Shown here in pieces: positions 18,382-20,695 of a DNA stretch of 64,000 nucleotides. The stretch covers positions 139,433-203,432 of the forward strand of contig MCAW01000003.1 of the NCBI GenBank assembly GCA_001704575.1. Reading direction: 5' to 3'. Made by a program: the position numbers and the translations under genes. Numbering within the stretch: position 1 is the first letter of the stretch; the number at the start of each line of letters is the position of its first letter. This DNA is from Methylophilales bacterium LSUCC0135. Lineage in GTDB: Bacteria; Pseudomonadota; Gammaproteobacteria; Burkholderiales; Methylophilaceae. A model generated the notes under the pieces. That model was not told where the DNA came from. It searched no databases and worked only from the letters and a program-made list of their open reading frames with translations.

Positions 18382-19950
18382 TCAGAACAGCGTTTGTTGG
18401 CGGTGATCACTCTGCTCTGATTTTGCTGGGACCTTGTCGCGACTGGTATAAGCCGACTTGCGTGACGCGTGACGACGCACGATATCAGCAGTTTCTGCCG
18501 CATGATGGCCCGGTCGTATGGCTTTGCTCATCATTGCACGCGCCTCCCGCATCGCCAGACCAATATCAACACAGGGCGCTGGATAGTCACGATCGATGAC
18601 GCAGCCATGGCGTTGCTGCAAGCAGGACGGCATGCGCCAGGGCTCAAACAACCAGCTGTCCGGAACGCGACGCAGCGAAGGCAGCCAGCGTCTTACAAAA
18701 GCACCATCAGGATCCTGATCCATTGCTTGCTTGACCGGGTTGTACATGCGCAGCGTGTTGATACCGGTGGTACCTGATTGCATCTGACTTTGTGGCCAAT
18801 GGATGCCGGCTTCATAATCCAGAAACTCGCGTGCCAGATGCAGGCTAGTATGTCGCCAGTGCAACCAGAGCAGATAACTGGCGTTGCTCATCAACATGGC
18901 GCGCATGCGAAAATTGATCCAGCCGGTTTCGCGCAACATCGCCATGCAGGCATCGACCAGTGGCCAGCCTGTTTGTCCCTTGGCCCACGCTTCAAGACGT
19001 CTTTGTGATTCGACGGTGGAAAGTGCTTCGTCGCGTATTCCATCGAAGGCGGAATGCAGATTGCGAATTTCCAGTTCCGGTTCGCTTTCAAGCTTCTGCA
19101 TGAAATGACAGTGCCAATGCAGGCGTTGTTCGAATGCGCGCAGACCTGAAAGCATGGCGGGACCGAAATCATGCGGCTGTTCTTGCGTTACTTGCACGGC
19201 GCGCCGGGTGGCTTGTACCGTTTCGCGCATACCGAGTACGCCCCAGGCCAAGTAAGGCGACAGCCTTGAGCAGGCGCTGACGGCTCGCAAAGGGCTTGAA
19301 ATGCCGCCTCGATAACGTTGTGCGCGTCCACTTAGAAAACTGTCGAGCACGAATTCTGCCTGCGCGCGGCCGCCACGCTGACGCCTGGGCTTGTCATTCC
19401 CGGCGGGAACGGTTGGCATCAAATCAGGTGCAATCATGGCTGGCGAGGGTTCCACCGGTCGCAATGCTGGCGCCAATGGTTCGCGCATTCTCTGCTCCCA
19501 CAATGTGGTCCACTGATCTCTGCTTTTGAGTTTGCGTACAACCCCATTCTGCGGATATTCAACCCATGTCACACGATGGTGACGACACCAGTCGGCCACT
19601 GTCCGATCGATCTTGAAACTGGCAAGATTGCCCGTTTCTTCGTGGCTGAAAAGCCTGCAGACATGATAACGGGCGGCAATCGCGCTCAGCGCCTCAGTCA
19701 TGCTGCCCGGCCACTCCAGCAGTTCAAGTCCAAGCCTGCGCAGACCTTTTCGCATTTCTGCGAGGCATTCCTGTACAAATACGGCATGTTGTCTGGCATG
19801 GTCGCCTCCCAGCCAGAATTCAGGATCCCAGCAGAACACTACCAGCGTGGCTCGCTCGGCGCATGAAACAGCCAATGGCGCGTGGTCATGCAGGCGCAGA
19901 TCGCGCTTGAGCCAGACAATATTGATCGGACTTTTAACGGCATTGGTCAT
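18382..19950 (-). CDS. FAD-binding photolyase/cryptochrome, atypical subclass
   Basis: A 522-residue photolyase-superfamily protein. The N-terminal alpha/beta antenna domain starts IVWLKRDLRLHDH (~10), and the FAD-binding helical domain holds GWPLVDACMAMLRETGW (~335). Where CPD photolyases carry the NNGGWQWAA-type active site, this one reads EAGIHWPQSQMQSGTTGIN, so catalytic residues differ and the repair substrate is uncertain. Homologues with a QMQSGTTG-type site occur in other Proteobacteria. The C-terminus adds a ~70-residue basic tail. Start ATG 19950 (MTNAVKSP) is preferred over the upstream 20049. It is divergent from a LexA-like S24 gene, suggesting a shared DNA-damage context. Confidence 0.85.
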   Translation of the reverse strand: MTNAVKSPINIVWLKRDLRLHDHAPLAVSCAERATLVVFCWDPEFWLGGDHARQHAVFVQECLAEMRKGLRRLGLELLEWPGSMTEALSAIAARYHVCRLFSHEETGNLASFKIDRTVADWCRHHRVTWVEYPQNGVVRKLKSRDQWTTLWEQRMREPLAPALRPVEPSPAMIAPDLMPTVPAGNDKPRRQRGGRAQAEFVLDSFLSGRAQRYRGGISSPLRAVSACSRLSPYLAWGVLGMRETVQATRRAVQVTQEQPHDFGPAMLSGLRAFEQRLHWHCHFMQKLESEPELEIRNLHSAFDGIRDEALSTVESQRRLEAWAKGQTGWPLVDACMAMLRETGWINFRMRAMLMSNASYLLWLHWRHTSLHLAREFLDYEAGIHWPQSQMQSGTTGINTLRMYNPVKQAMDQDPDGAFVRRWLPSLRRVPDSWLFEPWRMPSCLQQRHGCVIDRDYPAPCVDIGLAMREARAMMSKAIRPGHHAAETADIVRRHASRKSAYTSRDKVPAKSEQSDHRQQTLF

Positions 19951-20048: not shown

Positions 20049-20065
20049 ATTATTGTTACAATATT
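20049..20065. promoter_or_regulatory. Operator-like palindrome at the S24 gene start
   Basis: ATTATTGT-T-ACAATATT is an interrupted palindrome (8-base arms, one mismatch) ending 3 bases before the ATG at 20069. A related half (CAATAAT) lies upstream near 20026, giving a second, wider inverted arrangement with ATTATTG. The site sits in an AT-rich block unlike the surrounding ~57% GC DNA and would suit a repressor that controls its own gene and perhaps the divergent photolyase. Confidence 0.45.
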
Positions 20066-20068
20066 TAC

Positions 20069-20695
20069 ATGTCCGACCAATCCAGATCACCCCCCCCGAA
20101 ATCATCGCGCAAGCGCGCCCCCGGCGCCGGACGCAAGCCCGGCAGCGGCAAGTTCGGCGAGCCGACCACAGTGGTGCGCGTGCCGGTTAGCCAGTCTGCG
20201 GTTATCAAGGATTTTCTGTCCGCCTGGCAACGCAAGCGCATTGCTCAGGATATTGATGCTGTCGGTGAATTTGCCATGCCGGTCATTGACAGCACGCCTG
20301 TACGGCTGCCCCTTTACGGTTCCAGTGTGCCGGCCGGTTTACCCGGTATCGCTGACGACCATGTGGAAAAGCGCCTCGACCCGAGCGAATTCCTGATCGA
20401 CCGCAAGGACACCACCTTCTTTGTCACCATCCAGGGGCAATCCATGATCGACGCCGGTCTTTTACCCGGTGACAAGGCCGTGGTCGACCGCGCAAAGGTG
20501 GCTGCCATCGGCGATATCGTGCTTGCCATGCTCGACGGCGAATTCACCATCAAGACCCTCGGCCGCCACAAGGATGGCCGCGTCCGTCTGCTTCCCGCCA
20601 ACCATACCGGTACCTATGCCCCGATCGAAATCAGCGGCGAAATGCAATTCGAAATCTGGGGCGTTGTCACCGGCTCCTTCCGCCGCTTCCGTTAG
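20069..20695 (+). CDS. LexA-sized S24 self-cleaving protein (UmuD-like C-terminus, novel N-terminus)
   Basis: A 208-residue protein. Residues ~80-208 match the UmuD/LexA S24 peptidase fold: cleavage site Ala89-Gly90 (VPAGLPG), catalytic Ser125 (GQSMIDAG) and Lys162 (GEFTIKTL). The Gly-Ser and Ser-Lys spacings (35 and 37) equal those of UmuD. UmuD has only ~24 residues before its cut; this protein has 89, close to LexA's 84, but they are not the LexA winged helix. Instead there is a basic run (KSSRKRAPGAGRKPGSGK) and a short region (EPTTVVRVP...AVIKDFL) that may be a DNA-binding fold. No umuC follows. An imperfect palindrome sits just before the ATG. It could be an SOS-type repressor or an orphan UmuD. 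Confidence 0.8.
   Translation: MSDQSRSPPPKSSRKRAPGAGRKPGSGKFGEPTTVVRVPVSQSAVIKDFLSAWQRKRIAQDIDAVGEFAMPVIDSTPVRLPLYGSSVPAGLPGIADDHVEKRLDPSEFLIDRKDTTFFVTIQGQSMIDAGLLPGDKAVVDRAKVAAIGDIVLAMLDGEFTIKTLGRHKDGRVRLLPANHTGTYAPIEISGEMQFEIWGVVTGSFRRFR

Follow-up and report, generated by a model that had tools for sequence, protein, structure and literature searches.

The gene at 20069-20695 of the window (the whole stretch of DNA analysed, 64,000 nucleotides) most probably encodes a UmuDAb-type repressor, in which a UmuD S24 domain is fused to a short basic N-terminal domain predicted from sequence comparison to bind DNA. By analogy with the Acinetobacter protein, it probably keeps its own gene and three other umuD genes silent as long as DNA is undamaged. 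The locus comprises the following features.

18382-19950, minus strand: photolyase-type gene, divergent neighbour, whose start lies some 100 bp away from the operator; regulation through that site is not supported.
20049-20065, no strand assigned: putative operator ATTATTGT-T-ACAATATT, with core GTTAC at 20055-20059 and dyad centre at 20057 (comparison with relatives).
20069-20695, plus strand: coding sequence of a UmuDAb-type self-cleaving S24 protein of 208 aa, a probable autorepressor (open reading frame, profile searches, homologs).
20111-20155, plus strand: basic glycine-rich arm, residues 15-29 (KRAPGAGRKPGSGKF), with G21 invariant in 47 homologs (alignment).
20159-20185, plus strand: residues 31-39 (EPTTVVRVP), extended in the model and a candidate strand for DNA contact or dimerisation; all 47 homologs have R37.
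20186-20257, plus strand: residues 40-63, a single predicted helix with no winged helix-turn-helix (AlphaFold).
20333-20338, plus strand: predicted self-cleavage site Ala89-Gly90 (alignments of homologs).
20441-20443, plus strand: catalytic Ser125 (alignments of homologs).
20552-20554, plus strand: catalytic Lys162 (alignments of homologs).

The reading frame runs from the ATG at 20069 to the stop codon at 20693-20695. A89-G90, S125 and K162 are invariant in the alignments of 24 family sequences and of 47 wider ones; in the latter, invariant residues are few, G21 and R37 being others. The spacings from A to S (36) and from S to K (37) are those of E. coli UmuD, where cut, Ser and Lys stand at positions 24, 60 and 97. 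The cut is preceded by 88 residues, a length that matches LexA (84) and not UmuD (24). The sole Pfam match is Peptidase_S24 (residues 81-200, E 1.9e-25). NCBIfam assigns the protein to the UmuD subfamily (113.9 bits against a cut-off of 110), and the LexA profile TIGR00498 scores 74.2 bits, below its cut-off of 110.95. LexA_DNA_bind (PF01726) has no match in the protein by Pfam profile search; with this result and the TIGR00498 score, LexA identity is rejected. Foldseek matched S24 relatives only, the best being UmuD' (43% identity). The next gene in the 3' direction is gyrA (start 20866), and no umuC is present there. The original prediction, of a complete S24 cleavage set with UmuD spacings behind a LexA-length but non-LexA N-terminus and without a following umuC, agrees with these results throughout.

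Pfam recognises nothing before residue 81, yet the N-terminal sequence KRAPGAGRKPGSGKFGEPTTVVRVPVSQSAVIKDFLSAW is strongly conserved among homologs. A. baumannii UmuDAb, as found in record L078, has a homologous N-terminal domain (GGARENAGRKAQFNEPTKVIRVPESQVNFIKNWLLNN; tblastn 35% across residues 19-208). Two AlphaFold models of the protein, from 24 and 41 sequences, agree: the basic arm is modelled with low confidence, residues 31-39 are extended, and a single helix starts at 40 and ends at about 60-63, with pLDDT of about 80-91 across residues 41-60. Neither a winged helix nor any other known DNA-binding fold appears in residues 1-80 of the models. The DNA-binding N-terminus that had been proposed is retained as a conserved, UmuDAb-homologous domain and not as a recognised DNA-binding fold. 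A ribbon-type domain is possible, because strands that pair only in the dimer would look extended in a monomer model. Assignment to ribbon-helix-helix, a conjecture from the strand plus the helix, was rejected as having no Pfam support.

The N-terminal domain was also sought in phage sequences. Searches of viral contigs gave no confirmed relatives. Two phage families of unknown function matched the domain, PHROG 8312 in 12/12 members and PHROG 21736 in 10/12, so phage proteins that lack S24 may also contain it.

The near-palindrome ATTATTGTTACAATATT occupies 20049-20065, with three bases (TAC) between its end and the ATG. Its outer arms, which read TTGA/TCAA in relatives, are degenerate. No second site in the window matches it when up to 3 mismatches are allowed (0.04 matches expected). 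Alone, the dyad is marginal (9/11 paired; p=0.05 when its 70-bp upstream region is shuffled); its significance comes from conservation in relatives. A GT(N)AC-centred dyad lies within 60 bp of the start in 26/26 relatives examined (for L016 and L017 counted from an upstream ATG), most often with the core ending exactly 9 bp before the ATG. The consensus in relatives is TTGA-N5-GTNAC-N5-TCAA, and the best-kept operators are near-perfect 23-bp dyads, e.g. TTGATTATTGTTACAATAATCAA in G033.

Pairing between the operator halves was compared with shuffled controls. Half-site positions 3-9 pair in 120/168 cells, against 98.4 ± 4.2 in shuffles and a maximum of 114 in 10,000 of them (24 sequences, anchored on the core only; right halves dealt out anew as the null). 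In wider taxa, odd-centred dyads give 224 paired positions against 167.8 ± 7.0 in shuffles and even-centred dyads 122 against 101.1 ± 4.0, counts biased upward by the choice of these dyads for palindromicity. The shuffle tests overstate significance somewhat, because related sequences are not independent and kinship is ignored. As judged from the aligned upstream regions, the operator halves co-vary and the site is not a chance one. The placement of an operator at the start codon, proposed from the window sequence, is thus corroborated by the upstream regions of relatives.

Exactly four exact matches to ATTNNTGTNACANNATT occur in the 2.1 Mb of the genome, each upstream of a umuD-type gene: the window gene, a complete 164-residue umuD (contig C8), and two umuD copies truncated by the ends of contigs C12 and C24. 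A broad SOS regulon under this operator was rejected for this genome, as no exact match lies outside umuD-type genes. One-mismatch matches also number four, similar to the count in a reversed-pattern control; one resembles what is left of a decayed umuD upstream region, and no obvious repair gene lies close to the other three. Allowing up to 3 mismatches, 11 of 61 genomes contain the 23-bp consensus, and all 11 encode the N-terminal-domain protein, an association partly built in because many of the matches are the upstream site of the window-gene homolog itself. Other matches stand before a short umuDC (G016) and before a standalone umuC (G012). Among genomes encoding the N-terminal-domain protein, a short umuD carries the operator in 4/5: this genome (three copies), G007, G016 and G023. 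In the fifth, G003, the protein is present and its short umuD is without the operator. As a control, 8 genomes lacking the N-terminal-domain protein were examined, and none of their 9 short umuD genes carries the operator. By this sequence comparison the operator tracks the presence of the N-terminal-domain protein at other umuD genes; together with its occurrence in all the relatives, this favours the LexA-like, self-cleaving autorepressor that had been predicted.

Several observations concern these sites and their surroundings. The site at L124 1501-1517 (G000:C3:225120; ATTCCTGTTGCAGAATT) has flanks that match the umuD upstream region and no umuD after it, with a terminase-small-subunit-like gene beside; it looks like a decayed remnant of a umuD upstream region. 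A short CRISPR-like array (repeat GATTACCCCGTATGCACGGGGATGAGCC; L001 about 2460-2760, G000:C8 about 70012-70312) precedes the complete short umuD by a few hundred bases. In relatives, full operator-like dyads occur about 40 bp upstream of mutL (L049 1501, G006; TTGATAGTTGTTACAACAATCAA) and immediately before a small ORF for an AlpA-like regulator (L039 1501, G019; genome of 1.4 Mb).

The genome encodes RecA and gives no LexA DNA-binding domain in a LexA_DNA_bind profile search. In 37 same-family genomes a strong LexA_DNA_bind match is found in none and a weak one in six, from a divergent LexA-like S24 protein. Such proteins, of about 195-210 residues with weak LexA_DNA_bind scores, are seen in the relatives at L032, L073, L075, L076 and L077. 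No umuC is present in the assembly, where it may be lost in gaps; the only Y-family match, DinB-like and distantly related (about 25% identical to UmuC), lacks the operator. This counts against the repressor reading, as control of umuD by itself offers no evident benefit. Two contigs, however, break off within umuD genes that are almost the same in sequence and both carry the operator (L055 1-106 on C12; L056 6221-6305 on C24), so absence of umuC from the genome cannot be asserted. A repeated umuD(C) locus probably broke the assembly at these ends and may have hidden umuC.

Homologs of the window gene often head umuDC operons, with umuC directly next in many relatives; the family accordingly belongs within UmuD, as a repressor-type form. 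The original prediction had held that an adjacent umuC in relatives would mark a plain UmuD. Such adjacency is common, but it does not make the protein a plain UmuD, since these relatives retain both the N-terminal domain and the operator. The prediction did not include the UmuDAb homology, the three further operator-bearing umuD genes or the frequent umuC neighbour of the homologs. The same adjacency, together with the NCBIfam placement, favours reading the protein as a pol V accessory UmuD with a long non-regulatory N-terminus, behind an upstream motif that is a conserved promoter -10 element (TACAAT, similar to a -10 box) plus start region. This is quite unlikely. The motif varies symmetrically, with co-varying arms TTGATT/AATCAA, TTGAAT/ATTCAA, TAATT/AATTA and others, unlike a -10 box; the core can take the form GTNAC, GTAC or GTGC, with loss of TACAAT, the distance from core to ATG differs among homologs, and in this genome the motif recurs at umuD-type genes only. 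A dual function is rather more plausible, if still doubtful, and is compatible with a UmuDAb-type repressor: the full-length protein would repress, and the cleaved S24 part would act as UmuD' with the UmuC polymerase. A repressor that becomes a polymerase subunit on cleavage would couple both jobs, in keeping with the many umuDC operons headed by homologs and with an S24 part scoring above the UmuD cut-off. Against it, umuC is neither adjacent to the window gene nor found in the assembly, short UmuDs without the N-terminal domain exist in the genome and could serve the polymerase, and UmuDAb of A. baylyi failed to substitute for E. coli UmuD (PMC4807011).

The original prediction also extended repression to the divergent photolyase, so that a damage-inactivated repressor would control both that gene and its own. 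The short distance from the operator to the photolyase start is consistent with this, as is one promoter-like minus-strand match (GTAACA-N17-TATTAT, 20059-20031) that overlaps the operator, but such matches are near chance (1 found, 0.4 expected). A photolyase stands beside the window-gene homolog in no relative examined, only in this genome, and the closest relative retains mazG, the intact operator and the gene adjacent to one another with no photolyase between. This part of the prediction is not borne out and control of both genes is unlikely; joint control could occur in this genome, though comparison with relatives lends it no support.

The UmuDAb-type repressor proposed for the window gene would act as follows, its DNA binding, repression, dimerisation, RecA dependence and cleavage all being read from homology to Acinetobacter UmuDAb. 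A dimer would bind the GTTAC-centred dyad overlapping the start of its own gene and the matching dyads before three short umuD genes elsewhere in the genome (CTTAATTCCTGTTACAGAATTAAG sites), and would block transcription of all of these. RecA filaments on damaged DNA would stimulate self-cleavage at Ala89-Gly90. The DNA-binding domain would thereby lose its link to the S24 domain that dimerises, and the genes would be released.

UmuDAb of A. baumannii and A. baylyi (PMC4807011, PMC11332147, PMC7273328) shares with the window protein a homologous N-terminal domain (GRK..EPTKV.RVPESQ) in which profile searches find no HTH, a UmuD-type S24 domain with an Ala-Gly site, a lexA-less genome, and a GTNAC-centred dyad before its own gene and other umuD genes (here the C8, C12 and C24 copies). 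The two proteins are 35% identical. The UmuDAb operator is a 21-bp TTGA-N4-GTNAC-N4-TCAA; relatives of the window gene have N5, i.e. half-sites 1 bp longer, and the window arms are degenerate, which is taken as an operator variant. The UmuDAb dyad lies about 45-50 bp upstream, whereas the window dyad abuts the ATG (9 bp from the core). UmuDAb has an adjacent divergent ddrR corepressor gene; the window locus has no ddrR and, in this genome only, a divergent photolyase instead. In Acinetobacter the N-terminal domain is required for repression (PMC4807011).

E. coli UmuD resembles the window protein in S24 fold and cleavage-site spacing; the window protein differs in about 64 more residues before the cut, its own operator and no adjacent umuC. 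LexA resembles it in length before the cut and in self-cleavage logic; the window protein differs in lacking LexA_DNA_bind, in its UmuD-subfamily sequence and in a conserved-core dyad in place of CTGT-N8-ACAG. HdiR, the Bacteroidetes non-canonical LexA and Francisella FddR (PMC8565304, PMC13148647) are likewise S24 repressors that took over damage control without LexA, but they derive from phage-type (COG2932) repressors, whereas the window protein is UmuD-derived.

UmuDAb-type regulators were found in Methylophilaceae, Xanthomonadales relatives, Chromatiaceae, Legionella plasmids and others; the nearest named relatives include Methylotenera and Methylophilus proteins, which makes Methylophilaceae the probable family of this genome. 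In a tree of the S24 domain, the short UmuD of this genome groups with UmuDs bearing the N-terminal domain, several of which head umuDC operons (support 96/87). The grouping suggests that the short UmuD lost the N-terminal domain and kept the operator. The outcome looks like a division of labour, with the domain kept by the window gene without umuC and the operator kept by the short umuD copies. A. baumannii offers a parallel, UmuDAb there repressing several umuDC alleles (PMC7273328). UmuDAb, described in Acinetobacter, has been treated as a special, convergent case (PMC8565304, PMC11332147). A broader proposal, with about even chances, is that a self-repressing UmuD with a non-winged-helix DNA-binding domain (basic arm, extended strand, single helix) is an old and widespread means of LexA-independent pol V silencing in Pseudomonadota and plasmids and not an Acinetobacter peculiarity, and that in the window lineage it split into a dedicated repressor and domain-less umuD copies with the operator. 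The openly readable accounts that were covered put UmuDAb-type regulators in Acinetobacter/Moraxellaceae; prior reports may exist in subscription papers and preprints. The spread well beyond Acinetobacter, the conserved, slightly longer operator and the absence of DdrR appear to be new, and the mechanism is already known. If the family-wide operator is functional, many bacteria that are lexA-less or have a divergent LexA would possess a ready-made switch by which damage controls mutagenic polymerases. Conservation of both operator and N-terminal domain would, in addition, supply dozens of natural protein-operator pairs from which DNA recognition by this unclassified domain could be solved by comparison.

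L078 (CAKLQH020000001.1) contains the A. baumannii operator CTTGAAAATGTAACTTTTTCAAG together with umuDAb, chromosomal-looking genes and a divergent 78-residue ORF of ddrR size. This 328-kb record bears the label 'Acinetobacter phage MD-2021a' and looks like a bacterial chromosome contig filed as phage.
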